Assembly: GCA_007693325.1 (NCBI GenBank)
Contig: REDW01000128.1
Span: 1-44,828, forward strand
DNA from: Spirochaetaceae bacterium
Lineage (GTDB): Bacteria; Spirochaetota; Spirochaetia; DSM-27196; PWMO01
DNA length: 44,828 nucleotides
Direction of reading: 5' to 3'
Of this stretch, positions 4,755 to 39,778 are shown piece after piece; position 1 is the stretch's first letter; every line of letters begins with the position of its first letter. Made by a program: the position numbers and the translations under genes. The notes beneath the pieces are model-generated. The model was not told the DNA's origin. It saw only the letters and a program-made list of their open reading frames with translations, and did not search any database.

Positions 4755-7700
4755 CTACAGCGCGCCGGCTATAACGTACTCGAGCTCGCTGAGGGCGCGC
4801 TCGAGCTGGTAGCGCGACTCCAGCACCGCGGCGTGCGCCTCTATGCGCGCGAGCTCGGCGGTCAGTTTAGCCTCGCGACTGATGGTCTCGCTCTGATACG
4901 CGGCCCGCGCACTGCGGGCTCGCTCATCGGCGTGCGCGGCTTCAGCTGCACGGCGCCGGCGCGTTGCATCGGCGCTGCGTACCGCTGCCACTGCCCGCTG
5001 GACCGCCAGCGCACGCGAGCGGCTGTATTCCGCGGCGCCGCTGTGGGCCAGTTCGGCGGCAAGCTCGGCCTGCTCGATCCGGCCGGCGCTTTGTCCGCCG
5101 TCGAACAGCTGCAGTTCTCCGGCAATCGTAAGCCGCCACTCCCAGTCGGCATCCTCGCGCCAGCGGTCTTCAATCGCGGGGAGCCTCCTGCTGGTAGTCT
5201 CCAGATTGAACTCCAGTCCCACCTGCGGCAGCAGATTACGTTGCGCGCGGGCGGCAGCCGCCGCAGCCTCGGCACGCCGGGCCTGCAGATAGAGTGCGGC
5301 GAGGCTCGGAGACTCGAGCATGGCGCGTTGGGTGAGCTCAGCCTGGTCCAGTTCGGGTACATCGCTGCGAAAATCCGATGTCAACTGCGAGGCTTGCGGT
5401 CTGTCTATGCGGCAGTAGAACGCCAACCCTTCGCGGGCGCTACCCCCGGACTGCTCCGCCTCAATCAGGCGCGCGGAGAGCTCAGCCTGCAGCGCCTGCG
5501 CTTCGAGTACCGCTTGGGCAACCAGACGCCCCTCCTGGTATCCGGCACGCCGGTCGGCCACCACCTGGTCTACCAGTTCAGCCATCTCGCGTAGCAGAAC
5601 CTGTGACTCCTCGGCAAAGCGCGCCGCGAAGTACAGCTCGCGTACCTCGAGACGCAGCTCGTGCTCGGTCTGCTGCAGCTCGACCTGCCGCGCTTGCTGC
5701 TCGAAGCGCGCGGCCTCGATTGAGCGCGAAATCCGTCCCCAGGTGAAGACCGGCTGGCGCAGCGTAGCGGTGGCCCCATACACCGTGCTCGGCAGGTCAA
5801 GGTCGATATCGAGCGGCTGTGCCGGAATAGGGATCGGCTGTGTTGGCAGTGAAGGGCCGAATTCCCCCGGCTCGATCACCGTCACGGCGCCTGCGGGAAG
5901 CTCAAAGCTCTCGGATGAGTAGCCGAGCCTGCTGGCGCTCAAGCGTAGCGCTACGCTCGGGGCGCGTTCAGCACGCGCCGTGCGATACGCGGCTTCGCTC
6001 TGCAGAACGTTCAGCCTGCCGCGCCGCGCTGCATCCGAGTCCTGCAGCGCACGCGCCTCCAGGTCTTCCACGCTGAACTCGACTGCGTACGGCCGGTCTG
6101 TTTCCAGCCCGCCGGCAGCCTGCTGAGCAGCGGACTGCGGCGCAGCAAGCAGCAGCCCGAGCCCAGCAAGCACTACTGTCAGCCCATTGGTAAAACCCCG
6201 TGGCGCAACGCTGCCGGTAGCACCGGCAGCGTTGCCGTCACCGTCTCCGCGGTTACGCTGCCGCTCGATGAAGCGTTCGATAGCATAATACAGTGTGGGT
6301 ATCAGTGCCAGGGTTATCAGCGTTGAGCTGAACAGACCGCCAACCACGGCGCGCCCAATCGGGTAGCGCAGCTCTGCGCCAACACCGATTCCAAGCGCCA
6401 TCGGTAGCAGTGCCAGCAGCGTGGTGGCTGACGTCATCAGAACCGGTTTGAGCCGTGTCTTGCCTCCGCGGATAACCGCGGTCCTGAGATCGATGCCGCG
6501 CCGGCGCAGGATATTCATGTAGTCTATCAGTACAATAGCGTTGTTGACCACCAGGCCCACCAGCAGGATCGCACCCACAAACGAAAGAATGTTGAACGTT
6601 GAGTTGGTGATGATCAGCGCCGCCACCAGACCGATAATTGCAAACGGAACCGAGAACATCACAATCAACGGATCGACAAACGACTCAAACTGACTTGCCA
6701 TTACCATGTACACCAGCAACGCGGCCAGCAGCAGGGCAAAGAAGAGGCTTTCAAAGCTCTCCTGCATCTCTTCGGCGGCGCCGGTGAAGTTCACCGTTAT
6801 CCCGGCGGGCGGTTCTCCCATCGCCTCAACCCTGGTCTGGATGTCGTTCATCACCCTGTTCAGCGCTCGTTCCCCGGTGAGGTTGGCGAGAACGTTGACG
6901 TTACGCACACGGTCCAGACGGCGGATCGCGTCGGGCGCGATGTCCTCGCGGAAGTCCACCACGTTTTCTATCGGGACCCGATTCCCCTCGGGGGTACGAA
7001 AGAAGATGCTGCGCAGCGCGTCACGGTTGTTGCGGTCTTCCTCGCGCAGCATCAGCCAGACATCGTAGCGCGATTCCTGTTCACTGAAGCGCGAGACCTC
7101 GCTGCCGTGATAGGCGGTGCGTATGGTCTGTGCCACCTCCAGCGGCCGCAGTCCGCGCCGCACCGCTTCACTGCGCCGCAACCGCAGTTGCAGCTCGCGC
7201 GCCCCGTCGCGGGTATCGGTCCTTACGTTGCGTGCCCCGGAGACATCTGCCACAGCCTGGCGCACGCGTTCGCCGTAGCGACGCAGCTCATCAAAGTCAT
7301 CGCCGGTCAGCTCGACAACTAACGGGCTGGTCACACCGCTCGCGGACTGGGCTATTGCAGCCATCCCCTGGATTTCAACGTTGTAGTCCAGATCCATCAA
7401 TTCGCGGCCGATCCTGCGGTCGATCTCATTGGTGATACTCCAGATATCGCGTCGCCGTGTCTGTACGTCGGCAAGCCTTACGTGAACCGTGGCGGTGTTG
7501 TTGCCGCGGCCGCTGCCGCCGCCCTGCAGCATTGCGCCGCCGCCAATAACCGATGAAAGCGCCACGATGTAGCCGTCGGACTCTTCGCGGATGATGCTTT
7601 CGACCTCGTCTACCCGCCGGGCGGTGGCCGCGGCACTCGAGTCGATGCGGGTGCGGAAGTTGACCACAAAGCTGCCCTCATCGGCCTCCGGCAGAAACTC

Positions 7701-9416
7701 CATTCCCAGCAACAGTATCGAGGCGACCGAGAGTGCCAACAGCAGCACCGCCGATACGATCACTACTGCAATGTTTGACAACGCCCACTCCAGCAGACGC
7801 TCGTAGCCGTCATCCAGCGCTCGCAGCACCCGTTGGACACGTGCAGCCACGCTGTTTAACAGCGCGGAGCGGCTTTCAATTTCCAGATCCGCAAGTGACA
7901 GCTCGGCGTCCTGCCGGTCGGCACCCGTCTGCAGCCCCGCGGCATCGATGCGCAGGAAACGCGAGCACAGTACCGGCATCAGGCTTATTGCAGCGGCCAG
8001 CGAGACAAACAGTGAAAACGCTATCGTTAGCGAGAGATCCTCGAACAGGATACCGGCGATGCCCTCAACGTAGAGCATCGGCAGAAATACCGCCATCGAT
8101 GTGAGAGTCGACGCGGTGATTGCAGTCGAGACCTCCTCGGCACCGCTGACTGCGGCCTCAAAGCGGTCCAGTCCGTTAAGCTGCTTGCGGTAAATCGATT
8201 CCAGTACAACGATCGAGTTATCAACAAACATTCCAATTGCCAGCGTAATCCCCATCAGCGATGTAATATTGAGCGTCATTCCACCGAAGTCGATAAGAGT
8301 GAAGGTCGACACCACTGCAACGGGGATCACCAGCGAGATTATCACTGTGCTGCGCAGGTTGCGCAGAAAGACAAGCAGGACAAATATCGCCAGAATACCG
8401 CCCTGCCAGGCTGCGTTGACCACTCCGCCGATAGAGTCGCGCACCTGGTCGGCCTGGTTGACCTGCACCTCTATCTGTAATGAAGGAGGCAGGCTGCGCT
8501 GCAGGATGTGCAGGCGCCCGAGCACCTCATCATTTACATCAACGGTATTGTAGCCGGGTTGCTTGTGCACCTCGATCCGCAGTCCCTCGCGGTCTGCCGC
8601 GCGTACAAACTCCTGCTGCGGCTTGAAATCCATCTCGATTGTGGCAAGATCACCGAGAAAGATCGGCACACCCGCGCGCGATGCAACCAGCACCTGCTCG
8701 ATATCCGCAACCGATTCAAACTCGCCGATGGTGCGCAGCGAAAGCTCGTAATCTCCGAGTTCCATGCGCCCACCGGGCAGCGTCACGTTCTCGCCCTCGA
8801 ATGCTCGTAACACCTCGCTGACCGCCACCGCGTGGCGTCCCAGAGCATCGAGATTGAGACGCACCATAACGGCGGCTTCACGCCCGCCGAATAGATCTAC
8901 CTGGGCCACCCCTGCAACCCGCTCGATCTGCGGCGAGACCCGGTCTTCTACCAGACGCCGCACATCCATCCCCTCGGCGCTCGAGAGGACGTTGAGCTCC
9001 AGCGTGGGGTAGAGCCCGCCCTCAAATTTGAACAGCTGCGGCCGTTCGGCACGCGGCGGCAGCGTGTCTTCGATTGCGTTGAGCGCCTCGCGGACATCGA
9101 TCAGGGCCATGTCGATATCGGTGTCCGATGCGAAGTTCATGCGCACCGTTGAGAGTCCTTCACGCGAGGTGGAGTTGATGTGTTCCAGACCGTTGATACC
9201 CGAAACCGCGTCCTCGATCTCGACGGTTACATCGGATTCGACTTCAAAGGGCCCAACCCCCGGATACGGCGTGAACGCAACTATGGCCGGCAGGGTAGCT
9301 TCGGGAAACAGCTCCTGCCCGATGCGGTTCAGCGATATAATGCCTATTGTAAACAGGCCCGCGAAAATCATGACCACCGTAACCGGTCGCTGAACCGAAA
9401 ATGCCGAGATACTCAT
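4755..9416 (-). CDS. RND efflux pump fused in frame to a TolC-like outer membrane factor
   Basis: One uninterrupted frame of 1553 codons. Residues 1 to about 1045 are an HAE1/AcrB-type RND transporter: first helix after SVQRPVTVV, the proton-relay helix GMFVDNSIVVLES (Asp then Asn instead of Asp-Asp), large periplasmic loops and the final helices ending near LYYAIERFIERQR. A linker rich in Gly, Asp and Ala (about 1050-1070) leads to a signal-peptide-like hydrophobic segment (TVVLAGLGLLLAA, about 1080-1092) with an AQQA-like cleavage region. Residues about 1105-1553 form an outer-membrane-factor domain with two long coiled-coil repeats rich in Ala, Glu and Arg. The start overlaps the adaptor gene's stop (ATGA). 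Pump and channel are normally separate proteins, so the fusion is unusual. Drug or solvent export is the likely role. Confidence 0.9.
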   Translation of the reverse strand: MSISAFSVQRPVTVVMIFAGLFTIGIISLNRIGQELFPEATLPAIVAFTPYPGVGPFEVESDVTVEIEDAVSGINGLEHINSTSREGLSTVRMNFASDTDIDMALIDVREALNAIEDTLPPRAERPQLFKFEGGLYPTLELNVLSSAEGMDVRRLVEDRVSPQIERVAGVAQVDLFGGREAAVMVRLNLDALGRHAVAVSEVLRAFEGENVTLPGGRMELGDYELSLRTIGEFESVADIEQVLVASRAGVPIFLGDLATIEMDFKPQQEFVRAADREGLRIEVHKQPGYNTVDVNDEVLGRLHILQRSLPPSLQIEVQVNQADQVRDSIGGVVNAAWQGGILAIFVLLVFLRNLRSTVIISLVIPVAVVSTFTLIDFGGMTLNITSLMGITLAIGMFVDNSIVVLESIYRKQLNGLDRFEAAVSGAEEVSTAITASTLTSMAVFLPMLYVEGIAGILFEDLSLTIAFSLFVSLAAAISLMPVLCSRFLRIDAAGLQTGADRQDAELSLADLEIESRSALLNSVAARVQRVLRALDDGYERLLEWALSNIAVVIVSAVLLLALSVASILLLGMEFLPEADEGSFVVNFRTRIDSSAAATARRVDEVESIIREESDGYIVALSSVIGGGAMLQGGGSGRGNNTATVHVRLADVQTRRRDIWSITNEIDRRIGRELMDLDYNVEIQGMAAIAQSASGVTSPLVVELTGDDFDELRRYGERVRQAVADVSGARNVRTDTRDGARELQLRLRRSEAVRRGLRPLEVAQTIRTAYHGSEVSRFSEQESRYDVWLMLREEDRNNRDALRSIFFRTPEGNRVPIENVVDFREDIAPDAIRRLDRVRNVNVLANLTGERALNRVMNDIQTRVEAMGEPPAGITVNFTGAAEEMQESFESLFFALLLAALLVYMVMASQFESFVDPLIVMFSVPFAIIGLVAALIITNSTFNILSFVGAILLVGLVVNNAIVLIDYMNILRRRGIDLRTAVIRGGKTRLKPVLMTSATTLLALLPMALGIGVGAELRYPIGRAVVGGLFSSTLITLALIPTLYYAIERFIERQRNRGDGDGNAAGATGSVAPRGFTNGLTVVLAGLGLLLAAPQSAAQQAAGGLETDRPYAVEFSVEDLEARALQDSDAARRGRLNVLQSEAAYRTARAERAPSVALRLSASRLGYSSESFELPAGAVTVIEPGEFGPSLPTQPIPIPAQPLDIDLDLPSTVYGATATLRQPVFTWGRISRSIEAARFEQQARQVELQQTEHELRLEVRELYFAARFAEESQVLLREMAELVDQVVADRRAGYQEGRLVAQAVLEAQALQAELSARLIEAEQSGGSAREGLAFYCRIDRPQASQLTSDFRSDVPELDQAELTQRAMLESPSLAALYLQARRAEAAAAAARAQRNLLPQVGLEFNLETTSRRLPAIEDRWREDADWEWRLTIAGELQLFDGGQSAGRIEQAELAAELAHSGAAEYSRSRALAVQRAVAAVRSADATRRRRAAEAAHADERARSARAAYQSETISREAKLTAELARIEAHAAVLESRYQLERALSELEYVIAGAL

Positions 9417-10750
9417 GAGCCGTTTGCACCGCCCTGGGCACCGCGCCGCACCGTCTGTCCATCTTCGAGAAACGCGTTGCCGCGTACAATGACTTCAAGG
9501 TCATCCTGATGCTCCCACGCTTCGAGCCCGCAGCGCAGTTCTACCATGCCGTCCTGCTCGATACCTGGCTCCACCTCCACCATATGCGCGGTGCCGTGAG
9601 ACCCGGCCGCTTCGCCGTCGTTGGCGGGCTCAAACAGGAAGACCACCGCCTGGCCGCCGCGACGCACAACAGCCGTCCGCGGTACCGTCAGCGCGTCGGC
9701 AGCCTCGCGCACGGTGACGTAGGCGTTAACAAACATGCCGCCGCGCAGATCGCCGTACGGATTATCGATCAGAGCCTCGATCATGAAAGCGCCCGACTCG
9801 GGCGACACGGTGCGGCCAACCCGGCTCACCTGCCCGTGGTATTCAATGTCATCACCGAGCGCCGACGGCACCACCGCAACAGCGATTTCAGCGCCCGAAC
9901 GGTCAAGCTGGATGAAGCGGCCGTAGTGGCGTTCGGGAACCGGTAACTCGAGCTTGATTCGCTGATCGCCCACCAGGATTGCAACCGCAGTGGCCGTATC
10001 AACGGTGTCACCCACGGCAACCGGCAGTTCGGCCACGGTTCCGGCAACCGGCGCGGTTACCCGCGCATCGCCGGCACGCAGGCGTGCAAGCTCCCAGCGG
10101 TTCTCTGCGGCCTGGAGGTTGGCCTCGAGAGCCTCGATCTCCTCCTCGGTCGCGCCGTCTTCCAGCATTGTGAGTTCACGGCGCGCGTTCTCCACCGCGG
10201 TGTGCGCCCGCGCCACCTCGTTCTCGGTCTGCTCGAACTCACTGCGCGAGATCACGTCATCCGCAAACAGAGATCTGGCACGTTCGAAAGCGTTTTCAGC
10301 AACCCGCAGGTCTTCCTCTGCCTGCGCCACCGTTGCGCGGGCGGATTCCAGCTCCTGCCGGCGGGCACCGCGGCGGGCACGCCGCAATTCGGCCGCCGCG
10401 GCGTTGCGGGCAGCCTCCGCCTGGCGCATTTCCAGTTGCACCGTCCGGTCATCGATGCTCACAAGGATGTCATCACGCTGAACCGGATCGTTCTCGCGCA
10501 CGTGCACGTGTTCTACGCGGCCGGCAAGCTTTGGCAGCACTGCGGTGTGGCGCTCAGCCCGCAGCGTACCGGGGTAGCGCAACCGCTCGCGCAGCGTGCG
10601 GTACTCGATGGCAACGCTGCTCACCGCGGGGACCGCCGCCGGCTCCTCGGGATCCAGAATAGCCGTCACTACCTGCAGCAGCGGTATACCGAGAAAAACA
10701 AGCAGCGCCGCAATGGCGCCCCACAGCAGCCGCCGGCCGGCGGTAGTCAA
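9413..10750 (-). CDS. RND periplasmic adaptor (membrane fusion protein, HlyD/AcrA family)
   Basis: A 445-residue adaptor that would link the inner-membrane pump to the outer-membrane channel. It has an N-terminal membrane anchor (LLWGAIAALLVFLGIPLLQV), a first lipoyl half (AVLPKLAGRVEHVHVRENDPV), a long alpha-hairpin coiled coil of about 120 residues rich in Ala, Glu and Arg, a second lipoyl half (DARVTAPVAGTVAELPVAVGD), then beta-barrel and membrane-proximal domains. It is the first gene of a two-gene efflux operon and overlaps the pump frame by four bases. The start appears to be TTG, with AGGAGG (10761-10756) five bases upstream; no in-frame ATG is available nearby. Confidence 0.93.
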   Translation of the reverse strand: MTTAGRRLLWGAIAALLVFLGIPLLQVVTAILDPEEPAAVPAVSSVAIEYRTLRERLRYPGTLRAERHTAVLPKLAGRVEHVHVRENDPVQRDDILVSIDDRTVQLEMRQAEAARNAAAAELRRARRGARRQELESARATVAQAEEDLRVAENAFERARSLFADDVISRSEFEQTENEVARAHTAVENARRELTMLEDGATEEEIEALEANLQAAENRWELARLRAGDARVTAPVAGTVAELPVAVGDTVDTATAVAILVGDQRIKLELPVPERHYGRFIQLDRSGAEIAVAVVPSALGDDIEYHGQVSRVGRTVSPESGAFMIEALIDNPYGDLRGGMFVNAYVTVREAADALTVPRTAVVRRGGQAVVFLFEPANDGEAAGSHGTAHMVEVEPGIEQDGMVELRCGLEAWEHQDDLEVIVRGNAFLEDGQTVRRGAQGGANGS

Positions 10751-12516: not shown

Positions 12517-13680
12517 ATGAAACTCTATCAGGGCTGGAAAGTCGCCATCGCCGGCATGGGAATCAACTTCCTGGTCGGTATCTCGTACGCCTGGAGCATC
12601 TACGCCCGCGGACTAAGCCGCGAGCTGGGCTGGTCGCAGGCCGAAACCGCCCTGCCCTACACGGTGTTCATTGTGTGCTACGCGGTCTCGATGGTGGCGG
12701 CCGGCAGAGCGCAGGACCGTCTGGGACCGCGGCCGGTTGTTACCGTTGGCGCGCTCCTGGTGGGATCGGCGTTTCTCGTCAGCGCCTTTATGGTACGCCC
12801 CCTGCCGATGGCGCTTGTCTGGGGAGGTCTGTTTGGTACGGGACTGGCGGCGTGCTTCGGATCGGTTACACCGGCAGCCATGAAATGGTTCCCACCGCGC
12901 AGTCGTGGGTTGGTTGCCGGCGTTGTGGTGACCGGCGTTGGCCTTTCGGCAATCGTCATGTCTCCGCTGGTGCACGTGCTGGTGCAGCAGAGCGTGACAA
13001 CCGCTTTTGTGGTAAGCGGCCTCATGCTGCTGATCGGCACGCTGCTGTTATCCCGCTGGGTCTCCAACCCACCTCAGCTCGATCAGCAGCAGCCGCACGG
13101 TTCCCCTGAGGTGCCGTGGTACCGCGTGCTGCGAGACCACCGCTTCGGGCTGTTGTGGCTGATGTTTCTGCTATCGACCACTTCCGGCCTGACCTTTGCC
13201 ACGCATCTGGACCGCATAGCGCGGGTTCAGGCGTCTCTGCACGAGGGATTTCTGACGGTCTCCTTGTTTGCGCTGTTCAACGCTATTGGCCGTCCGCTCG
13301 GTGGCATTGTCTCGGACCGCATCGGGCGCACCCGGTCTATGACGCTGACCTTTGCATTTATGACTTTGATGCTGTTGCTGTCGCTGGTGGCGTACAACGC
13401 AGTACTGCTTTCGCTGGCGGTGGCCATGATCGGTCTGGGCTACGGTACGATATTCAGCCTCTTTCCGGCCGCTACGGTCACGTTCTTTGGCGAGAAGCGT
13501 TTTGGACTCTACTACGGCCTGGTGTTCACTGCTATCGGCGGCGCCGGTATCTATCCGCTGCTGGCCGGGCACCTGTTTGACCGCCTGGGCAACTTCACGC
13601 TGGCACTCGGCCTTCCGGCGCTATTCTGTGCCATTGCGGCGTTGCTGTCGCTGCGCCTGTCGCGGTTGAATCCTCAGTAG
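12517..13680 (+). CDS. MFS transporter, OFA (oxalate/formate antiporter) type
   Basis: About 387 residues with 12 hydrophobic segments. The N-terminal segment YQGWKVAIAGMGINFLVGIS followed by YAWSIYARGLSRELGWSQAE and the loop AGRAQDRLGPRPVVTVG are typical of the OFA family, and a second DRIGRTRSM-type loop marks the C-terminal half. OFA members exchange or import carboxylates; the substrate here is unknown. I place the start at ATG 12517 (MKLYQGWKV), where family similarity begins. The upstream ATG at 12484 sits inside a perfect hairpin. Neither start has a good Shine-Dalgarno sequence. Its 3' end overlaps the convergent tupC-like gene by seven bases. Confidence 0.83.
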   Translation: MKLYQGWKVAIAGMGINFLVGISYAWSIYARGLSRELGWSQAETALPYTVFIVCYAVSMVAAGRAQDRLGPRPVVTVGALLVGSAFLVSAFMVRPLPMALVWGGLFGTGLAACFGSVTPAAMKWFPPRSRGLVAGVVVTGVGLSAIVMSPLVHVLVQQSVTTAFVVSGLMLLIGTLLLSRWVSNPPQLDQQQPHGSPEVPWYRVLRDHRFGLLWLMFLLSTTSGLTFATHLDRIARVQASLHEGFLTVSLFALFNAIGRPLGGIVSDRIGRTRSMTLTFAFMTLMLLLSLVAYNAVLLSLAVAMIGLGYGTIFSLFPAATVTFFGEKRFGLYYGLVFTAIGGAGIYPLLAGHLFDRLGNFTLALGLPALFCAIAALLSLRLSRLNPQ

Positions 13681-14678
13681 AGCTCAACCGCCGACGCCTT
13701 GAACGTCACCCACAAGCGGCTTCCCGTGCGCAGCCGCAATTGGTCCACCGAGCGATGCGTCACCGTCGACACAAGCCGGCAGCCGCAGTCGATCTCGACT
13801 CGTGCCAGCTCGCCGGCAGTCAACTCGACCGCGCGCACATCGCCCTGCAGTCGGTTCTGCGCGCTGGTGACCGTCGCCTCAGCCGACAGGATGATGTCAT
13901 CCATGCGGACCACCGCGGTGGTATATTGACCGCGGGCTGCCGGGCAGAAGATTTGCGGACCGCCGCTGACCTGGAAACGCCCGATGTGCTCGTCTCCCGG
14001 ATCGAGAGTCCAGCCGCGCAGGATGTTGACGGCAACCGGCCGCAGCCGCCCCTCTTTCATCGGCACAATTCGATCGGCAAGCCGATAGGCAGAGGGCAGA
14101 TTATGCGTACTCATAATGACGCTGCGACCGCACTCGGCCTGCCAGCGCAGCACGCGCTCCACCGCAGCAATTGAGGCAGCATCGATGTTGGATGTTGGCT
14201 CGTCCAGCAGCAGCACCTGCGGTTGCAGTACCAGCGCGCGCGCAATGGCCGCACGCTGCTTCTCACCACCGGAGAGTGACGGCGCCCAGCGCCGCGCCAG
14301 CTGCTCCAGCCCCACCTGCTCCAGCGCCGCCAGCGTACGTTGGCGCACATCGTGCCGCGGCAGTCGGCGGATTCTCAGCGGCCACGCCACGTTGGCGTAG
14401 ACGCTCTCGGCAAACAGGTAGGGGCGCTGGTGCACCAACAGCGCCGGACCGTTGTGCACCCCGACCGATCCGCCGTCCGGTATCAGCAATCCCGCCAGCA
14501 GTTTGAGCAGCGTTGTCTTGCCGCAGCCGTTATCGCCGATCAATACCATGATCTCGGACGCCTGGGCTGTCAGAGACTCGATCTGCAGCAGCGCCTGGTC
14601 ACCAAACTGCGCCTGGTCGGCGTTGCCGCTGTCGGGGTAGCTGAAACGCAAGCCGTGAAGTTCAATTGCCGGGCTCAT
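13674..14678 (-). CDS. tupC: Tungstate/molybdate ABC transporter ATP-binding protein
   Basis: A 334-residue ATPase. Walker A GDNGCGKTT, Q-loop VHQRPYLF, ABC signature LSGGEKQR, Walker B VLLLDEP and switch His in MSTHNLPS are all visible in the first 220 residues. The last about 70 residues look like a TOBE/Mop oxyanion-binding domain (RLQGDVRAVELTAGELARVEI). It energises uptake through the permease encoded just before it, with a four-base ATGA overlap. The association with a TupA-type binding protein and a tungsten oxidoreductase favours tungstate. It is the last gene of the operon regulator-tupA-tupB-tupC. Confidence 0.9.
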   Translation of the reverse strand: MSPAIELHGLRFSYPDSGNADQAQFGDQALLQIESLTAQASEIMVLIGDNGCGKTTLLKLLAGLLIPDGGSVGVHNGPALLVHQRPYLFAESVYANVAWPLRIRRLPRHDVRQRTLAALEQVGLEQLARRWAPSLSGGEKQRAAIARALVLQPQVLLLDEPTSNIDAASIAAVERVLRWQAECGRSVIMSTHNLPSAYRLADRIVPMKEGRLRPVAVNILRGWTLDPGDEHIGRFQVSGGPQIFCPAARGQYTTAVVRMDDIILSAEATVTSAQNRLQGDVRAVELTAGELARVEIDCGCRLVSTVTHRSVDQLRLRTGSRLWVTFKASAVELY

Positions 14679-15376
14679 ATGGTCCTGTTCCCCGGCCGGA
14701 AGCGGATCAGATAGTTGAGCCCGAAATTGACACCGAAGGCCACCGTCATCAGCACAATGCCCAGCGCCACCGAGAGGGCAAAGGCGCCCTTCTGGGTCTC
14801 CAGCGCAATGGCGGTAGTGATGGTGCGCGTATACCAGCGTATGTTGCCGCCGAGCATCATGGCCGTTCCCACCTCGCCAACCACACGCCCAAAGGCGGTC
14901 AGAATTGCTGATACCACCGCGATGCGTCCCTCGCGTACGATCTTGACGCTACGCTGCAGCCGCGTTGCACCCAGCGTCTGCAAGGTTTCGGCCAGCTCGG
15001 GATCAAGCCGGGCAAGCCCGCCATAGACCAGTGAGACAACAATCGGCAGCGCCAGGACCGCCTGGCCGATGATCACCGCGGTAGGGGTGAACATCAGCCC
15101 AAGGCCACCGAGCGGTCCGGAGCGCGACAGCAGCGAGAACACCAGCAGTCCTACCACCACCGTCGGCAGTCCCATCAGGGTGTGGGTTGCCGCTACAACG
15201 CTGCGTTTGGCGGGAAACTCGCGAAACGCAAACAGCACGCCTATCGGGGTACCGATCAGCGCCGCTATCAGCGTTGAGGCGATGGCGAAGTGCAGCGAGT
15301 TGAAGGTTATCGCGGCCAACTCACGATCCCAGACCACGAGCAGCCGCAACGCCTCGATCAACGAAGCAAGATTCAT
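14675..15376 (-). CDS. tupB: Tungstate ABC transporter permease
   Basis: A 233-residue inner-membrane permease with five to six hydrophobic segments. It carries the EAA-type cytoplasmic loop ELAETLQTLGATRLQRSVKIV that docks onto the ATPase, then a conserved TupB-like stretch GRVVGEVGTAMMLGGNI. The permease of this family is encoded between the binding protein and the ATPase in the same order as here. The stop overlaps the ATPase start by four bases, and 18 bases separate it from the tupA stop. Substrate assignment follows from the binding protein and neighbours. Confidence 0.9.
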   Translation of the reverse strand: MNLASLIEALRLLVVWDRELAAITFNSLHFAIASTLIAALIGTPIGVLFAFREFPAKRSVVAATHTLMGLPTVVVGLLVFSLLSRSGPLGGLGLMFTPTAVIIGQAVLALPIVVSLVYGGLARLDPELAETLQTLGATRLQRSVKIVREGRIAVVSAILTAFGRVVGEVGTAMMLGGNIRWYTRTITTAIALETQKGAFALSVALGIVLMTVAFGVNFGLNYLIRFRPGNRTI

Positions 15377-15394: not shown

Positions 15395-16234
15395 TTAATC
15401 GCCGTCAGGGAAGAACAGCTGCTGACCGCGTACGCGATAGCCGGCAATCAGCGCTTGTCCCTGTGAGGAAGTTACGTGCCTGATCAGCGCCTGCGCAAGT
15501 TCCAGCCTGACGTGCGGATGACGTTGAGGGTTGACCGCAATGATGCCATAAGGATTGAACAGCAACGCGTCACCCTCAAACAGCACGCCAATCTCAACAT
15601 CGCCAGTATAGGAGAGATAGGTGCCGCGGTCAGCCAACGTGTAGGCCTGCCGCTCGGTGGCCAGCGTGATCACCGCCCCCATTCCCTGGCCGACTTCGCG
15701 ATACCAGGCGCCGGCGGTGTCAGCACCCGCGAGGTCCCAGATCTCACGTTCCTTGACGTGCGTTCCCGAGTTGTCGCCGCGCGAAATGAACTCCGCCCGT
15801 GCAGTGGCAATTCGCGCAAACGCCTCGCTGACCTCTGCTGCGCCACCCACCCCGGCCGGATCTTCTGCGGGCCCCAGCACCACGAAGTCATTGTACATGA
15901 AATGGACCCGTTCAACTCCGTAACCGTCGGCCACAAAGGCGCGCTCTAGTTGCGGCGCGTGTACCATCAGGACATCGGCGTCGCCGCTGCGTCCGATCTG
16001 CAGCGCCTGCCCGGTACCAACGGCAATCACATCCACGACCGCGTTGTGGCGCGCTTCAAACGGCGGCAGTAGTTCGGCCAGCAGACCGCTGTTCTCGGTG
16101 CTGGTAGTGGTGGCCAGCACCAGCCGCGTTGCTTCTGCGCGTTGCCGCCGTCCGGCTGCGAATAGCGGCGGGGTGCTGAACGCCAACGCCGCCATCAACA
16201 GCAAAGTCATTGCCATTGACGTCTTTGCAATCAT
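15395..16234 (-). CDS. tupA: Tungstate-binding periplasmic protein
   Basis: A 279-residue exported binding protein. A signal peptide (MTLLLMAALAFSTPPLFAAG) precedes the mature start. The hallmark TTTSTENSGLL segment (about residues 42-52), the oxyanion-binding TTTS of TupA-type proteins, is intact, as is the second lobe motif FISRGDNSGTHVKEREIW. It should capture tungstate at the membrane and hand it to TupB. AAGGAAAG lies just upstream of the ATG. The closest relative in this window is the C-terminal half of the adjacent regulator, with which it shares block after block, so one probably arose from the other. Confidence 0.9.
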   Translation of the reverse strand: MIAKTSMAMTLLLMAALAFSTPPLFAAGRRQRAEATRLVLATTTSTENSGLLAELLPPFEARHNAVVDVIAVGTGQALQIGRSGDADVLMVHAPQLERAFVADGYGVERVHFMYNDFVVLGPAEDPAGVGGAAEVSEAFARIATARAEFISRGDNSGTHVKEREIWDLAGADTAGAWYREVGQGMGAVITLATERQAYTLADRGTYLSYTGDVEIGVLFEGDALLFNPYGIIAVNPQRHPHVRLELAQALIRHVTSSQGQALIAGYRVRGQQLFFPDGD

Positions 16235-16266: not shown

Positions 16267-17433
16267 CTATGTACACGGTTGAAACAGCGCAACTCCCTGT
16301 GAGTCGACTGCGGCGGTGCGCACAATATCCCACTTATGCTGCCGGAACCAGTTGATGAACTCTCCGGCGCAGCGGTAGCCGGCCGCGTCTGCCACGCCGG
16401 AACTCACACGCAGAATCGAGAACAGGTCGTCCATGGAGCTGTTCCGGCTGTCCTCTGGATCGCGGTACAATACCGCGAGCTCTGCGCCAAGTCCCCATCG
16501 GCGTACGGTTGCATTGTCCACCAGCGTGTAGGCGTGCTCGCCGGCGGCCTGCTGCAGCAGAGCACGATTTCCGCTGCCGCGGCAGTTGCGGTACCACCGC
16601 GGTTGCGGGCTCACGCCTGCAGCGTTCCACAACGCCTGCTCGCGGATATGAGTGCCGGAGAAGTCACTTCGACTGATGAACCCTGTCCCGCTGCGCGCAA
16701 CGCGCCGCATCGCCTCCAACGGGTCGCCCGCGCCGGCTGCCTCGCCAACTGCCGCCGGATCAGACCGCGGGCCAACGATCACGAAACGGCTGCGCATCAT
16801 CGGAATGACGGTCTCGCCCCAGCCCTGTTCTACAAAGGCGTGTTCCAGTTCGGGGGCGTGGGTCAGCGCCAGGTCTATCCGGCCGCTCTTGGAGAGTTCC
16901 AGTGCAGCACCGCTGCCCGCAGCAACGTGTCCCAGCCGCACCCCTGTCTCGGCGTAGAACGCCTGGGCGATTGTGTCGATCAGCCCGGTCTCAACCGACT
17001 CCAGAGTAGCCGCCACGAAGAGCAGCGGCACGCTTTCGGCGCGTCCACGCGGGGTATTGGGCCGGTCCACGCCGGCTGCCGCCGCAGTAACGGCCGCCTG
17101 CGGGTCGCTACGCAGGCTCTCATCGACCCTCGCGCTGATCTGCGTCAACTCGCGCCGCACGGCGTCTCCGTAATCAGTCAGTCGGCTACCCCCGCCGGCT
17201 GCACCACCAACGGTGGTGTCGACCAGCCGCGCGCCGAGCTGTAGTGTGGCAGCCGCCACCACCCCCCAGGCGTGGCGATACGAGTGGCCGAGACGGCGCG
17301 CGGCCGCACTCAGCGACTCACCGCGCGAGATTCCGTCCAGCAGATCGCGCAGGGTAGCGGCCGAGAGCTCCCCGGAGTGCAATTGCAGCCGTAATTCGGC
17401 GCGGACGTGCTGTGCCAGTTCACCGGACACCAC
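16267..17433 (-). CDS. ModE-type HTH fused to a TupA-like binding domain; tungstate-responsive regulator (predicted)
   Basis: A 388-residue protein without signal peptide or membrane segment. Residues about 10-105 match the ModE N-terminal winged helix: SLSAAARRLGHSYRHAWGVV and, after a glycine-rich wing, SRLTDYGDAVRRE. Instead of ModE's Mop/TOBE domain, residues about 130-388 form a TupA-like domain: LLFVAATLESVETG where TupA has TTTSTENSG, ALTHAPELEHAFVEQGWG, FISRSDFSGTHIREQALW and HAYTLVDNAT. It probably binds tungstate or molybdate in the cytosol and represses the tup operon it heads. The start is GTG with GGAG five bases upstream. A ModE-like palindrome overlaps its promoter. Ligand and direction of control are inferred. 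Confidence 0.85.
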   Translation of the reverse strand: MVSGELAQHVRAELRLQLHSGELSAATLRDLLDGISRGESLSAAARRLGHSYRHAWGVVAAATLQLGARLVDTTVGGAAGGGSRLTDYGDAVRRELTQISARVDESLRSDPQAAVTAAAAGVDRPNTPRGRAESVPLLFVAATLESVETGLIDTIAQAFYAETGVRLGHVAAGSGAALELSKSGRIDLALTHAPELEHAFVEQGWGETVIPMMRSRFVIVGPRSDPAAVGEAAGAGDPLEAMRRVARSGTGFISRSDFSGTHIREQALWNAAGVSPQPRWYRNCRGSGNRALLQQAAGEHAYTLVDNATVRRWGLGAELAVLYRDPEDSRNSSMDDLFSILRVSSGVADAAGYRCAGEFINWFRQHKWDIVRTAAVDSQGVALFQPCT

Positions 17434-17523
17434 GGTAACTCCAGCGCAAAGAGTTTGACCCTGGTGAGACTCCTATTACCATTCTCATCCGTTCCTCCCG
17501 TTCCTCGGCAACGTACCGTGCGC

Positions 17524-17552
17524 ATCATACCAGCTCTGATATCGTTATGCAA
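17524..17552 (-). promoter_or_regulatory. Predicted promoter of the regulator-tupABC operon
   Basis: On the minus strand TTGCAT (17552-17547), a 17-base spacer and TATGAT (17529-17524) preceded by TGG (extended -10) form a likely promoter about 90 bases before the GTG start. The -35 lies inside the palindrome at 17541-17568. Confidence 0.55.
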
Positions 17553-17568
17553 TCGTTAACATAACGCT
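17541..17568. promoter_or_regulatory. ModE-like operator
   Basis: ATCGTTATG (17541-17549) and CATAACGCT (17560-17568) form an inverted repeat matching at eight of nine positions (CGTTATG/CATAACG is perfect). The layout resembles the E. coli ModE site, which has ATCG-TATA-type arms and a central gap. It lies between the divergent regulator and radical SAM genes and covers the -35 of the tup operon. It is therefore the natural target of the ModE-HTH regulator encoded alongside. Confidence 0.65.
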
Positions 17569-17635
17569 GAGCAGAATACCGCTTGCGACCGCGCTCTGCC
17601 GGCTATGCCGGCGTATTTGACCGTCCGAGTAATAT

Positions 17636-18808
17636 ATGATAGTGTTCACCCAAGGTATTGACGTGAGCTACCATAACACCACCCCTTCCCGGGAGGTCTA
17701 TCCCTTCTCCGGCGGGGAGCTTGTGCTGTACAAGAGCGACAAACTCGAGAAACTCTACATCGAGCTTACCAGTCGCTGTAATTTCAGCTGCCGCATGTGT
17801 TTTCGCAACAACTTCAGTGCCGAGTTCGGCAGCATGCCTGACCGGGTGCTGGACGCGCTGCTGCAACAGATCGGCTCGCTGCCGCACCTCAAGGCGGCGC
17901 TGATCGGCGGAATTGGCGAGCCGCTGCTGCATCCGCGCCTCCGCGAGGTTGTGACGGCACTTAAACAGCGCGGCACCGTTGTAGACGTGCAGACAAACGG
18001 TGTACTGCTGGATGACGAGCTTATCGATTTCCTGCTGCAGCAGGAAATCGACCGAATCGTCACCAGCTACGAGTGTGGTGCGGTCGGCCACGTGCAGGCC
18101 ACCGGACTGAAGACCACCATCAGCAAGATAGCCAAACGCCGGCGCGCCCACCGCGGCGGCAACTCGCGCGCCAATCATCCGCGTATCACACTTGAATGGA
18201 TCCTCACCGCCGACACGCTTGACCGGCTGTCCAGCGAAGCCAGAGAGATGGTGGCGCTGGGTGTCAACGAGTTCATCCTCTCCAACCTGCTGCCGATGGA
18301 AGAATCGATGGCGGCAGATTCCCTGATCTTCAGCCGGCACACCGGCAGACAGAACCGTGTAGCGTGGAAGAACCAGGGAGACATCCTGGAGCCGTTCATC
18401 GACGCGTTGCGTTACCGGGCCAAGGTCCAACGCCCGGAGTTCCACCTGCGTACAGAACGCCGCTGCAGCTTCGTGGACAACAACGCGGCCGTCATCCGTC
18501 ACGACGGTGAGGTCGCTCCGTGCTACCGCCTGTTGCACGAGAGCCGCGAGTACTACCAGGGGCGCTGGCGCGCCGTGATGCCGCAGTCATACGGCAACAT
18601 CGCCGACAGCGCTGTCAACGAGATCTGGAACAGCCGCGATTACTTGTGGTTTCGCCATCAGGTGGGCAACAAGCTCTACCCTTCGTGTCCCGATTGCGAA
18701 CTGCGCGACGGTTGCGACTACCTTGCCGATACTACCGCCGATTGCTACGCCAACAGTCCCTCGTGTGCAGACTGCCTGTGGGACCGCCAGATTCTGATCT
18801 GCCCTTAG
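17636..18808 (+). CDS. Radical SAM maturase of a tungsten-cofactor oxidoreductase
   Basis: A 390-residue radical SAM/SPASM protein. The CNFSCRMC motif (CxxxCxxC, about residues 49-56) binds the SAM cluster. The C-terminal part has CSF...CYR, CPDCELRDGC and CADCLWDRQILICP, a SPASM-like set that ends in the CLW-x-CP tail typical of maturases encoded beside aldehyde ferredoxin oxidoreductases. The oxidoreductase gene follows it. The exact chemistry of this maturase family is not established to my knowledge. Start: ATG 17636 has no Shine-Dalgarno, whereas the in-frame GTG at 17663 (codon 10) has AAGG seven bases upstream and may be the true start. The tup operator lies about 70-95 bases upstream. 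Confidence 0.87.
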   Translation: MIVFTQGIDVSYHNTTPSREVYPFSGGELVLYKSDKLEKLYIELTSRCNFSCRMCFRNNFSAEFGSMPDRVLDALLQQIGSLPHLKAALIGGIGEPLLHPRLREVVTALKQRGTVVDVQTNGVLLDDELIDFLLQQEIDRIVTSYECGAVGHVQATGLKTTISKIAKRRRAHRGGNSRANHPRITLEWILTADTLDRLSSEAREMVALGVNEFILSNLLPMEESMAADSLIFSRHTGRQNRVAWKNQGDILEPFIDALRYRAKVQRPEFHLRTERRCSFVDNNAAVIRHDGEVAPCYRLLHESREYYQGRWRAVMPQSYGNIADSAVNEIWNSRDYLWFRHQVGNKLYPSCPDCELRDGCDYLADTTADCYANSPSCADCLWDRQILICP

Positions 18809-19248: not shown

Positions 19249-19272
19249 AAATTCATTTGTGGAGGTGTGCAC

Positions 19273-21075
19273 ATGGCGTTCATGGGTACCATGCTGAGAG
19301 TTAACCTGACTGACGGTACGATCAAGAAGGATCCTACCCCGATCGAACTGGCAAAGAAATACGTTGGTGGACGCGGACTGGCAACGCGGCTGCTGATGAA
19401 CGAGGTCGACCCCACCATAGATGCACTGTCACCGGACAACAAGCTGATCTTCGCTACCGGCCCGCTCAGCAACACCAATGCTCCAACCGGCGGTCGCTAC
19501 ATGGTGATCACCAAGGGCCCGTTGACCGGAGGCATCGCCTCCAGCAACTCCGGCGGAGAATGGGGTGCGTACCTCAAGAAGGCCGGCTACGACCTGGTAA
19601 TACTGGAAGGCAAGTCACCAAAGCCGGTCTATCTTTCGGTGATGGAAGACGACGTCCAGATCAAGGACGCCGCCCACGTCTGGGGCAAGCGCGTCCCCGA
19701 GACAACCGATACGCTGATCGCCGAATCCGGCCAGAAAAAAGCCAAGGTCAGCTGCATTGGGCCCGCCGGCGAGAATCTGGTCATGTTCGCCTCGATCATG
19801 AATGAGAAACATAGAGCGGCCGGCCGCACCGGGGTCGGCGCGGTGATGGGCAGCAAGAACCTTAAGGCGATTGTGGTGCACGGCAACAAGAAATCACCGA
19901 TTCCCGACCCCGACGCCTTTCGAGATCTAGTCAAAGGAAAGATTGCCACGATCAAGGCCAACGGCATTACCGGCGAGGGCTTGCCCAAACTGGGGACCAA
20001 GGTGCTGGACAACATCATAAACGAAAACGGCATGTACCCTTCGCGCAATTTCCAGGACGTTATGTACGACGGCACCTCACACATGTCCGGTGAAGCGCTG
20101 GTGGAAAAGGGCTACCTCAAGCGCAACAGTGGCTGCTACATGTGCCCAATAGCCTGCGCACGTAACGTTGAGCTGCCCAACGGGCGCAAAGGAGAGGGAC
20201 CTGAGTACGAGACCGGCTGGGCTTTCGGACCGCTGCTGGGCTTTCACGATCTGAACGTGATCTGTGATGCCAACTTCCTTTGCAACGATCTCGGCCTGGA
20301 CACAATCTCGGCCGGCGTGACCATCGCCTGCGCAATGGAGATGTATGAGAAGGGCTACATAAAGAAGGAAGAACTGGACAATGGACCGGAGCTCACCTTT
20401 GGCAATTCCGAAGCGCTGCCGTACTATCTGTATAAGATGGCCTACCGCGAAGGAATCGGAGACAAACTTGCCCAGGGTTCCTTCCGCTTTGCCACCAGTT
20501 ACGGCTGCCCGGAGTTCTCCATGACCTGCAAGAAGCAGGAGCTACCCGCCTACGACCCGCGGGGCGTTCAGGGTATGGGGATGTCCTACGCGGTAGGCAA
20601 CCGGGGCGGCGACCACGTACGCAGCTACCTCATCGCTCCAGAAATTCTCGGTTCACCGGAGAAACTGGACCCTCAGGCTGTCGAGGGCAAGATGCAGTGG
20701 TTGTTCATCTTCCAGAACCTGACTGCGGTGATCGACTCTTCGGGGCTCTGTCTATTCACCTCCTTTGCTCTCGGGGCCGATGACTACGCGGACATGCTCA
20801 ATGCCGCCACCGGTTTTGAACTGACCACCGCGCAGTGGCTTGAGGCCGGTGAACGCATCTGGAACATGGAACGCAACTTCAACCTCCTGGCAGGAATTGG
20901 CCCGGAAACCGATACGTTGCCCAGGCGGTTTTTTGACGAACCGGCGCAACGCGGCCCCAACAAGGGCAAGGTGCACCGGCTACCGGAGATGCTGCCCGAG
21001 TATTACCAGCTTCGCGGTTGGAACGCTGACGGCACCATGCCGCAGGCCAAACTCGAAGCCCTGGGTATTGAGTAG
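19273..21075 (+). CDS. aor: Tungsten-containing aldehyde ferredoxin oxidoreductase
   Basis: A 600-residue enzyme of the AOR family, which oxidises aldehydes to acids and passes electrons to ferredoxin using a tungsten bis-pyranopterin. Cluster ligands fall at Cys288, Cys291, Cys295 (CYMCPIAC) and Cys493 (DSSGLC), almost the same numbering as the Pyrococcus furiosus enzyme (288, 291, 295, 494 as I recall). Pterin motifs NDLGLDTISAG and DSSGLC are present, as is GRTGVGAVMGSKNLKA. The start is ATG 19273, seven bases after GGAGG (19261-19265); the GTG at 19267 is too close to it. It has its own promoter and riboswitch-like leader, is preceded by its maturase gene and followed by a MoaD gene. The aldehyde substrate is unknown. 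Confidence 0.95.
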   Translation: MAFMGTMLRVNLTDGTIKKDPTPIELAKKYVGGRGLATRLLMNEVDPTIDALSPDNKLIFATGPLSNTNAPTGGRYMVITKGPLTGGIASSNSGGEWGAYLKKAGYDLVILEGKSPKPVYLSVMEDDVQIKDAAHVWGKRVPETTDTLIAESGQKKAKVSCIGPAGENLVMFASIMNEKHRAAGRTGVGAVMGSKNLKAIVVHGNKKSPIPDPDAFRDLVKGKIATIKANGITGEGLPKLGTKVLDNIINENGMYPSRNFQDVMYDGTSHMSGEALVEKGYLKRNSGCYMCPIACARNVELPNGRKGEGPEYETGWAFGPLLGFHDLNVICDANFLCNDLGLDTISAGVTIACAMEMYEKGYIKKEELDNGPELTFGNSEALPYYLYKMAYREGIGDKLAQGSFRFATSYGCPEFSMTCKKQELPAYDPRGVQGMGMSYAVGNRGGDHVRSYLIAPEILGSPEKLDPQAVEGKMQWLFIFQNLTAVIDSSGLCLFTSFALGADDYADMLNAATGFELTTAQWLEAGERIWNMERNFNLLAGIGPETDTLPRRFFDEPAQRGPNKGKVHRLPEMLPEYYQLRGWNADGTMPQAKLEALGIE

Positions 21076-22208: not shown

Positions 22209-23405
22209 ATGAAACCGCACACCAGTTTTCTGCCGCACCAAGCGCTTGAGAAAGTTCTGCACGGCGTAACGCCTCTGGCCGTGGAAGAGGTCACCCTCGA
22301 GCGGGCGTTGTACCGCGTGCTGGCAGAGCCTCTCGATGCCCGTCTGCAAGACCCGCGGTTCAACAAGTCTGCGGTTGACGGCATCGGCATCCGCGGCGAC
22401 GACGATTCACCGGTGTTTGAGGTGACGGCAGAGATTGCCGCTGGTGACGGAACCGCTCACCGCCTGCAGCGCGGCCAGGCGGTGCGCATCATGACCGGCG
22501 CACCGGTTCCGCCCGAGGTTTCCCGGGTAATCAAGCTCGAGAACTGCAGCTTTGACGGCAGTTGCGCGCGGGTGGTGCAACCGGAACGCATCAGCAACAT
22601 AGCAATGCAGGGTGAGAACATACGCGTGGGCCAGCCGCTGCTGTCACCGAGGCGATTACAGCCGCCGGACATCGGTGTGCTGGCGTCGCAGGGCTACCGC
22701 ACGCTATTGGTCCACCGAAAGCCGCGCGTAGCGGTCATTGCCACCGGCGACGAAATCTATCCCGCAGACGCCGAATTGCCGCCGGCGGGAATCTACGACA
22801 GCAACAGCCATCAGCTATCGGCGTTTGCCCGCGACGCGTACGCCGACGTTACCAATCTGGGCATTGTCGGGGACAGTCCGGACCGCATCCGCGCGGCGTT
22901 GCGCGAGGCCGTGTCCGCTCACGATGTGGTCATGCTCTCAGGAGGGGTCTCTATGGGAGATCTGGACTTTGTCCCCGAGGCGCTGTCAGAGATTGGTGCC
23001 GAAACCGTATTCCACGGCCTGGCGATGAAACCCGGCAGACCAACGCTCTACGCAGTTCTACACGACGCTGTGCGTGTCAGCCGCATTTTCGGCCTGCCGG
23101 GTAATCCGATTTCAACCGCTGTCCAGTTCGAGCTTCTGGTGCGGCCACTGATATGGGCGCTCGAGGGCGCCACGTATGTGCCGCGCGAAGCGTGGCTGCC
23201 GCTGCCGGACGGCTACAGGAGAGCAAACGCAGAGCGGCACGAGTTCCGGCCGGGTGTCTACCGCGATGGCAGCGTGGTACCTCTGGCGTACAAGGGTTCC
23301 GGGCACATAAGTGTGCTGGCAGAAGCCACACTGTTTTTTGCTATCGAGCCTGGAGTCCATTCAGTCGAACCGGGGAGTAAGGTGCATGTTCGATTCATTC
23401 GGTAG
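22209..23405 (+). CDS. moeA: Molybdopterin molybdenumtransferase
   Basis: A 398-residue MoeA protein that inserts molybdate or tungstate into adenylylated pyranopterin. Diagnostic segments: FNKSAVDGIGIRGDD, RIMTGAPVPPEVSRVIKLE, ATGDEIYPADAELPPAGIYD with NSHQL, SGGVSMGDLDFVPEAL, KPGRPTLYAV and GLPGNPISTAVQFELLVRP. Domain IV (about residues 330-398) ends in the usual small beta barrel. Tungsten users often carry more than one MoeA; only one is seen in this window. It heads a plus-strand operon with moaA, moaC, mobB, a small ORF, moaD and moaE. The Shine-Dalgarno is weak (AGAG). Its last 20 bases overlap moaA. Confidence 0.95.
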   Translation: MKPHTSFLPHQALEKVLHGVTPLAVEEVTLERALYRVLAEPLDARLQDPRFNKSAVDGIGIRGDDDSPVFEVTAEIAAGDGTAHRLQRGQAVRIMTGAPVPPEVSRVIKLENCSFDGSCARVVQPERISNIAMQGENIRVGQPLLSPRRLQPPDIGVLASQGYRTLLVHRKPRVAVIATGDEIYPADAELPPAGIYDSNSHQLSAFARDAYADVTNLGIVGDSPDRIRAALREAVSAHDVVMLSGGVSMGDLDFVPEALSEIGAETVFHGLAMKPGRPTLYAVLHDAVRVSRIFGLPGNPISTAVQFELLVRPLIWALEGATYVPREAWLPLPDGYRRANAERHEFRPGVYRDGSVVPLAYKGSGHISVLAEATLFFAIEPGVHSVEPGSKVHVRFIR

Positions 23406-24186
23406 GCGGATAGACTATCTGCGTATTTCGGTGACCGACCGCTGCAATCTGCGCTGCAGCTACTGCATGCCGTGTGGCCACTTCAAACCGCTCACCGAGC
23501 AGCGTATTCTCAGCTACGAAGAGATCCTGTCCGTGGTCAAGGCGGCTGCCCGGCTGGGTATCAATAAGATCCGTCTCACCGGCGGAGAGCCGCTGACCAG
23601 ACGCGGTGTGGTTAACCTGGTAGAGTCAATTGCCGACGTGCCGGGGATCATCACGGTTGCTATGACCACCAACGGTGTGCTTCTGCCCCGCTACGCATCC
23701 GAGCTGAAGGCCGCCGGACTCGATGTTGTCAACGTTTCACTGGATACAATGGACCCCGAGCGCTTCCGACGCGTGACCCGTGGCGGACAGCTGCAGAGCG
23801 TCATAGACGGAATACTCTGCGCTCGTGACGCCGGCATCGAGCGCATCAAGGTCAACACGGTGGTTGGCCCGGATACTCCTCCCAGCGATCTCAAGGCGGT
23901 ACAGGACTTCTGCTCTTCCCACGGACTGCTGCACCAGCGAATAGCACTCTACAGCCTGGAGAGCGACAAGCACGACAACCACGACTGTGACCGCCCGTTG
24001 CCGTGCGAACAGTGCAATAGAATCAGACTGATGGCTACCGGTATCCTCAAACCGTGTCTGCACTCCAATGAAGAGGTCCAGCTCGACCCACAGAATCCGG
24101 AGGCCAGCATTCTGCGCACCGTGGCCCTGAAGCCCGAGCGCGGCACGGTATGCACCAACCGCTCCATGGTGGAGATTGGAGGCTGA
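23386..24186 (+). CDS. moaA: GTP 3',8-cyclase, unusually short
   Basis: A 266-residue radical SAM enzyme for the first step of pyranopterin synthesis. The N-terminal cluster motif is CNLRCSYC, followed by LTGGEPL and TTNGVLL. The C-terminal cluster motif is CEQC-NRIR-x9-C, keeping the spacing C-x2-C-x13-C. The protein ends in Gly-Gly, as functional MoaA does. About 60 residues usually found between the barrel and the second cluster (the RFIE-MP region onward) are missing and replaced by a short segment rich in Asp and His. I start at ATG 23386, which has GGGGAG and AAGG upstream and overlaps moeA by 20 bases; the longer frame from 23311 lacks family similarity. Confidence 0.9.
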   Translation: MFDSFGRRIDYLRISVTDRCNLRCSYCMPCGHFKPLTEQRILSYEEILSVVKAAARLGINKIRLTGGEPLTRRGVVNLVESIADVPGIITVAMTTNGVLLPRYASELKAAGLDVVNVSLDTMDPERFRRVTRGGQLQSVIDGILCARDAGIERIKVNTVVGPDTPPSDLKAVQDFCSSHGLLHQRIALYSLESDKHDNHDCDRPLPCEQCNRIRLMATGILKPCLHSNEEVQLDPQNPEASILRTVALKPERGTVCTNRSMVEIGG

Positions 24187-28034: not shown

Positions 28035-28077
28035 ACGCGTTGCTCCCATAAAAGAGTATCAGGATTTGTCGGTAGCC

Positions 28078-28107
28078 AGTATACGCGCCGCATTGCTGAC
28101 TTGTAAA
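28078..28107 (-). promoter_or_regulatory. Predicted promoter of the permease-mogA unit
   Basis: On the minus strand TTTACA (28107-28102) and TATACT (28083-28078) are separated by 18 bases. A small hairpin, AGCCAA-ataa-TTGGCT, just upstream (28124-28109 on the minus strand) could end the ssnA transcript. Confidence 0.55.
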
Positions 28108-28129
28108 GCCAATTATTTGGCTAGCTGCG

Positions 28130-32637: not shown

Positions 32638-32655
32638 TGTCAAACTCCTGCCGGA

Positions 32656-32664
32656 ATTGTATCA
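32656..32664 (-). promoter_or_regulatory. Extended -10 element of the ygfK operon
   Basis: The minus strand reads TGATACAAT at 32664-32656, an extended -10 (TGnTACAAT). It has no good -35 and lies about 20 bases before the ygfK start codon, so the leader would be very short. Confidence 0.4.
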
Positions 32665-32763
32665 CCGTTGCGCCGGGTGCGCCACGACGATCTGCCGCAG
32701 TTGTGCCGTTTGATGACTGTTTTGCTTCTCAACCGGCCGATTATGGTCTATGATCAAAGAACA

Positions 32764-34119: not shown

Positions 34120-34137
34120 TCTACAAGAGTCTACAAG
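34118..34137. repeat. Tandem 10-base repeat
   Basis: AGTCTACAAG occurs twice in direct succession (34118-34127, 34128-34137), starting within the stop codon of the amidohydrolase gene. A degenerate third copy begins at 34138. It may come from slipped replication; no function is evident. Confidence 0.7.
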
Positions 34138-34167
34138 CAATCTACCGAAGAAGGGAGTACGACGGAC

Positions 34168-35364: not shown

Positions 35365-35389
35365 TCAGCGGCACACACGGGGGTAGGTT

Positions 35390-38191: not shown

Positions 38192-38208
38192 ACGCCGTCA
38201 GCCGGCAG

Positions 38209-38227
38209 CGCGCCGGCAGCCGGCGCG
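38209..38227. terminator. Hairpin between convergent xdhD and PLP-enzyme genes
   Basis: CGCGCCGG-cag-CCGGCGCG is a perfect eight-base stem with a three-base loop between two convergent stop codons (38191 and 38244). There is no T run on either side. It is a likely bidirectional terminator. Confidence 0.5.
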
Positions 38228-38243
38228 ATATCGTGGCAGCGCG

Positions 38244-39704: not shown

Positions 39705-39778
39705 GGCGCACCTCTTCTGCTGAATCGTATCTGCTACTATAGCTCACAACGAGCGGCCTGGCTACCAGAAAACAGGAC

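Follow-up and report, generated by a model that had tools for sequence, protein, structure and literature searches.

A ModE-type DNA-binding domain fused to a TupA-family domain as a putative one-component regulator of the tup operon in a spirochaete lineage

We describe a fusion protein in which a ModE-type winged helix is joined to a TupA-family binding-protein domain, encoded ahead of tupABC in a 44,828-nt contig from a Spirochaetaceae bacterium (the whole of this stretch is hereafter the window). Its role as a one-component regulator of tup is well supported by the conserved architecture, a predicted ModE-type operator on the tup promoter and a matched predicted fold. The protein had previously been proposed to be a one-protein tungstate sensor-regulator; architecture, operator and fold bear out the regulator of tup, while tungstate is a plausible ligand judging from the residues of the binding pocket.

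It is poorly understood how bacteria distinguish intracellular tungsten from molybdenum. In the fusion, the place of the TOBE sensor of ModE is taken by a domain whose family includes tungstate-selective proteins of picomolar affinity. The fusion also shows that the DNA-binding head of ModE, along with its operator, lends itself to use with another sensor. The protein is small and probably soluble, so that its ligand, affinity and response are directly measurable, and it could become part of a tungstate biosensor.

Results

Gene, operon and domain architecture

The fusion gene begins with a GTG codon, with GGAG located 5 bases 5' of it (17439-17442), and it is, as the preliminary description had stated, the first gene of the tup operon, which is tight and has the order fusion-tupA-tupB-tupC (gaps of 32, 18 and -4 nt). 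The features are listed in Table 1.

Table 1. Location of the fusion gene, its domains, the neighbouring tungsten genes and the predicted regulatory elements in the window
Feature	Position	Strand	Basis
ModE-HTH + TupA-like fusion regulator gene, 388 aa	16267..17433	-	ORF reading and profile matches
ModE-type winged helix, residues 31-110	17104..17343	-	helix SYRHAW, wing GG-GGG-S-LT; TIGR00637; model near ModE, tied with LysR DNA-binding domains
TupA-family binding-protein domain, residues 138-366	16336..17022	-	NF041772, PF12849, 3lr1/5my5 fold match
tupA, periplasmic tungstate-binding protein, TTTS motif intact	15395..16234	-	NF041772 E=7e-67
tupB, permease	14675..15376	-	NF041773 E=1e-56
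tupC, ATPase, TOBE at C-terminus	13674..14678	-	PF00005 and PF03459
Tungsten-cofactor oxidoreductase radical-SAM maturase, divergent from fusion	17636..18808	+	TIGR04317 E=4e-103
Tungsten aldehyde ferredoxin oxidoreductase (AOR)	19267..21075	+	PF01314/PF02730
ModE-type operator CGTTATGCAATCGTTAACATAACG, predicted	17543..17566	.	CGTTAT-N12-ATAACG palindrome, divergent intergenic region
-35-like TTGCAT of tup promoter, within operator	17547..17552	-	five-locus comparison
-10-like TATGAT of tup promoter, 17-bp spacer	17524..17529	-	five-locus comparison

The ModE repressor-domain profile (TIGR00637) matched residues 31-110 of the fusion with E=1.7e-13, at 50.4 of 98.5 bits and thus under its curated cut-off, and the TupA profile (NF041772) matched residues 138-366 with E=6e-28. 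PF12849 reached 64.6 bits against a cut-off of 27. No TOBE domain was detected in the fusion protein at E<=1 in a scan that, with the same settings, detected the one in tupC. These matches agree with the earlier view that the ModE winged helix is present and that a TupA-like domain takes the place of Mop/TOBE, and the alignment also agrees that the blocks FISR-D-SGTH, HAPELE/HAPQLE and AYTL are common to the fusion and TupA. According to the ORF reading, the protein opens with the HTH domain and has no signal peptide. The nearest solved structures by sequence were the TupA-type 3lr1, 3muq and 5my5, and for the N-terminus the ModE structures 2ijl and 1b9m.

Comparison of the window with genome G003 gave dN/dS of about 0.2 for the fusion gene, indicating purifying selection. 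This also holds for the sensor half, since its dN was 0.101 for a dS of 0.58 (dN/dS about 0.17).

A full-length AlphaFold model was built from the five fusion sequences found (see below), with a mean pLDDT of 71, that is, modest confidence. Its C-terminal half matched the two-lobe fold of TupA from Geobacter (3lr1; Z 20.0, rmsd 3.9, 230 residues) and from D. alaskensis (5my5; Z 19.3, rmsd 3.3, 233 residues), as the preliminary description would predict, and ModA-type proteins scored below TupA (Z 13-15). The N-terminal part, modelled separately (pLDDT 75), resembled ModE of E. coli (1b9m/1o7l) and A. tumefaciens (2ijl) with Z of 10.1-10.3, tied with LysR DNA-binding domains; here the sequence profile decides and favours ModE. 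It should be noted that LysR-type regulators likewise combine an HTH_1-type domain with a following two-lobe effector domain. However, the LysR profiles stayed below cut-off on the fusion (HTH_1, 21.9 of 26.6 bits; LysR_substrate, 17.1 of 28), and both the profiles and the predicted fold of the effector half rank nearer to ModE and TupA.

Distribution and origin of the sensor half

The full fusion was found beside tup genes at five loci, in 5 of the 46 genomes of the order, representing three genera and three families; the other four proteins share 81, 60, 55 and 48% identity with that of the window. Wider sampling, across 395 genomes from the class and 393 from the phylum, gave no further fusion; TupA on its own is common in these samples. 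A single-protein search of 84,980 species genomes, by a method that reaches close relatives only, returned HTH-level matches only, so fusions in other phyla are possible. Plasmid records contained TupA-like matches, none of them spanning 80% of the fusion. Within the genomes searched, the fusion is therefore a conserved yet lineage-restricted protein.

The sensor domain had been taken for a cytosolic copy of the periplasmic binding protein of the same operon, suggesting that a transporter binding protein was recruited as a sensor. The two share only 34% identity. Moreover, a tree of 40 binding-protein domains grouped all five fused domains together (100/100) and separately from the operon TupAs, and a constraint placing them in one clade with the order's operon TupAs was rejected (p-AU 0.0009). 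The sensor half was therefore not copied from the neighbouring gene, and a recent duplication of tupA is excluded by this test, with some caution as long branches are involved. From these sequences, it appears to be an older TupA relative with a long separate history, whose exact root is made unsure by the long branches.

In the same family, two lipoprotein-like TupA relatives (L070 in G535 and L071 in G458) carry TVG or TIG instead of the TTS of the TTTS motif. They sit apart from the main TupA group and possibly form another subfamily.

A ModE-type operator on the tup promoter

The predicted operator, CGTTATGCAATCGTTAACATAACG, agrees with the E. coli ModE consensus ATCGNTATATA-N6-TATATANCGAT (PMC545781) in its outer blocks and spacing. 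Without mismatch, CGTTAT-N12-ATAACG is present as a single copy in the 3.47-Mb genome, at 17543-17566 of the window; it is also exact at the G003, G002 and G024 fusion loci and has one mismatch in G045. The extended palindrome CGTTATGCAA-N4-TTGCATAACG, with <=2 mismatches, was found in three of the 46 genomes, each time at the fusion locus, with 0 control hits. A chance match was considered and is ruled out by the uniqueness in the genome and the recurrence at fusion loci. Palindromes with up to three mismatches occur at chance level in the window and were excluded from the evidence.

At all five fusion loci, the downstream half of the operator (TTGCAT) lies 17-18 bp before a TATAAT-like hexamer (TATGAT, TATGAT, TATATT, TATAAT and TACATT), this -10 element being 13-14 bases past the operator. 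None of 20,000 shuffles reached this operator/-10 arrangement for the five loci, and 5 of 20,000 did for the three most distant ones. The tup promoter was identified from this five-locus comparison; a sigma-70 scan of 17380-17720 returned one weak site only, on the + strand. In G045, the operator and promoter are placed between the fusion gene and tupA, directly before tupA, and the conserved feature is therefore the control of tup. Among these loci, the window and G003 have the maturase gene in divergent orientation and G024 has a co-directional gene upstream of the fusion; no conserved promoter of the maturase gene was detected. An operator placed over the -35 element is the usual layout of a repressor. 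Given that the operator covers the tup -35, we infer a repressor geometry, which points to repression of tup.

G004, a draft genome of the same genus, provides a candidate natural loss. Its maturase, tupABC and AOR genes are present and 88-99% identical, while the regulator is cut by an internal deletion to an 87-aa frame (L031 7804-8005) and the operator spacer is 10 bp, against 12 bp elsewhere. As both regulator and operator are degraded, this fits a regulator-operator pair, a reading to be taken with caution in a fragmented draft.

The sequence CGTTATGCAAGTTATGCATAACG, with a spacer of 11, was observed in G055 (L038 9525-9547) at the start of a MobA/MobB-like gene; the same contig also bears a weak ModE-HTH match.

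The sensor pocket and its ligand

For comparison of the pockets, 5my5 was numbered with TTTS as 9-12, by which R118, T124, D170 and H59 match the positions named in PMC5517513. Of the eight pocket residues published for TupA, five (T10, H59, R118, T124 and D170) are retained by every one of the five fusions, and the lobe-B pocket residues are invariant among fusions down to 47% identity. The other three are consistently replaced, one of them by Glu: T9 by A/V, T11 by L/Y and S12 by E in 5/5 fusions, whereas TTTS is found in nearly all of 35 TupAs. The difference in the oxyanion loop pointed out earlier (AATLESVETG in the fusion, TTTSTENSG in TupA) is thus confirmed. The fusions also have fixed residues of their own at several further positions where TupA is invariant, such as R185, R214, S215 and R311/R312; D52 to R and N82 to S are among the changes.

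Mutation of R118 to E or Q in TupA abolishes or weakens the binding of tungstate, and molybdate is no longer bound by any of the three R118 mutants (PMC5517513). The Kd of TupA for tungstate is picomolar and that of ModE is near 0.8 uM (PMC5517513, PMC11980592), so a cytoplasmic sensor may be expected to be weaker than TupA. As judged from the residues, the half of the pocket that is retained speaks for an anion as ligand and the half that is replaced for a change in affinity or ligand choice; the Glu at S12 could block an oxyanion. Given that T9, T11 and S12 are replaced and R118, T124, D170 and H59 kept, sensing of tungstate or molybdate by the fusion is plausible.

According to the ORF reading, the window also encodes xanthine-dehydrogenase-like proteins, whose known relatives use molybdenum. 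TupABC may therefore supply the cell with both of them, tungsten and molybdenum, which leaves molybdate as a live alternative ligand of the fusion. In the genome of the window, we found no ModE-type HTH other than that of the fusion, and no PF12727 domain, ModA or WtpA.

Discussion

Proposed mode of action

With a ModE/TupA fusion and a ModE-type operator on the tup promoter, the system is very probably a one-protein switch of tungsten/molybdenum uptake. We favour, with reasonable but not high confidence, a one-component repressor of the fusion-tupABC operon in which it is itself encoded, with a probable further action on the divergent maturase gene. The fusion would bind the operator as a dimer, and its TupA-type domain would be a cytoplasmic receptor of tungstate (or molybdate), binding it less tightly than the periplasmic TupA does and by means of the kept lobe-B residues and the rebuilt lobe-A loop. 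The ligand would close the two lobes and thereby set the DNA-binding heads, turning uptake off in metal-replete cells.

It is also possible, if rather unlikely, that tup is controlled through the same operator while the pocket reads neither free tungstate nor free molybdate but, for instance, a pyranopterin-metal intermediate or another anion. The identical alteration of T9, T11 and S12 in 5/5 fusions, the new residues fixed at TupA-invariant positions and the long separate history of the fused domains in the tree are all in its favour. However, R118, which was tested by mutagenesis in TupA (PMC5517513), T124, D170 and H59 are kept in 5/5, and the gene context is that of tungsten uptake and tungstoenzyme maturation. 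In a related form, which we hold to be similarly doubtful, the TupA-type half would have been rebuilt as a cytoplasmic sensor of tungsten in a form different from free tungstate, or as a discriminator between W and Mo; if true, the fusion would be a lineage-specific regulator of tungsten status, not of the transported ion.

That the protein is mainly an activator, acting at the shared operator in its apo or ligand-bound form to raise transcription of tup and of the maturase gene, seems improbable. Some targets are activated by E. coli ModE (PMC11980592) and the maturase gene is divergent in the window and G003, but an operator over the tup -35 in 5/5 genomes has the usual geometry of a repressor. 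It is most improbable that the binding-protein half has lost ligand binding and serves a ligand-independent autorepressor or a dimerisation or interaction scaffold: the TTTS motif is indeed gone, with Glu at the serine position, but a dead domain should drift, and here dN/dS is low in the sensor half and the lobe-B residues are invariant.

Comparison with known systems

A modE gene lies 5' of tupABC in Geobacter bemidjiensis (PMC2996986). The fusion shares with ModE, the molybdate repressor of E. coli, the winged-helix DNA-binding domain, the CGNTAT...ATANCG palindrome with the same spacing, and a site beside a transporter of group-6 oxyanions; it differs by its two-lobe TupA-type domain in place of the TOBE/Mop ligand domain. 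With TupA (5my5, 3lr1), it shares the fold and R118, T124, D170, H59 and T10, whereas TupA has a signal peptide and TTTS, and the fusion has an attached DNA-binding domain, no signal peptide and a replaced TTTS.

TaoR has a PBP-like domain of the PF12727 type, a profile that reaches 13.6 bits on the fusion, below its cut-off of 27. In the accounts available, TaoR is an HTH + PBP-like regulator associated with the tungsten aldehyde oxidoreductase and with the uptake of tungstate (PMC11980592, PMC10102598), and the work describing it (Rajeev et al. 2019) is also cited for tupR of Desulfovibrio vulgaris. TaoR, the nearest concept among known systems, resembles the fusion in joining an HTH to a PBP-like domain and in its tungsten-linked regulation, and is, as far as these accounts go, a tungsten precedent with different parts for the earlier remark that such combinations are known. 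By description, TaoR-like proteins consist of HTH_17 and a PBP-like domain, whereas the fusion consists of ModE/HTH_1 and a PF12849 TupA-type domain and has a ModE-type operator; HTH_17 was not detected in it at E<=1.

Proteins of Advenella (L021) and Ferrovum (L020) also combine a ModE-like HTH with a binding-protein-like domain without signal peptide, but they carry as sensor PF12727, a relative of the PBP domain found fused to MoeA, and not TupA. In L021, the next downstream gene is not a tup gene but encodes a radical-SAM MoaA-like protein. The literature covered, which lies mostly outside subscription papers, yielded no account of a ModE-TupA fusion. The idea of a tungsten regulator made of an HTH and a PBP-like domain is already known; the novelty lies in joining the ModE head, along with the ModE operator, to a TupA-family sensor whose pocket is rebuilt.

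Other genes of the window

Near the tup operon, MoeA-like and MoaA-like genes (22209-24186, +) stand beside the AOR and MoaD/ThiF-like genes and make up a local pyranopterin-cofactor set. On the other side, a frame of 1553 aa (4755-9416, -; ORF reading) looks like an RND efflux permease running into a TolC-like outer-membrane factor, possibly a gene fusion or a frame-joined pair, and adjoins a membrane-fusion protein (9413-10750). A run of purine/xanthine-type genes (26610-44520; ORF reading) includes a uracil-xanthine permease-like gene, amidohydrolases, a YgfK-like oxidoreductase and two xanthine-dehydrogenase-like Mo proteins, together with carbamoyltransferase and ammonia-lyase-like genes.
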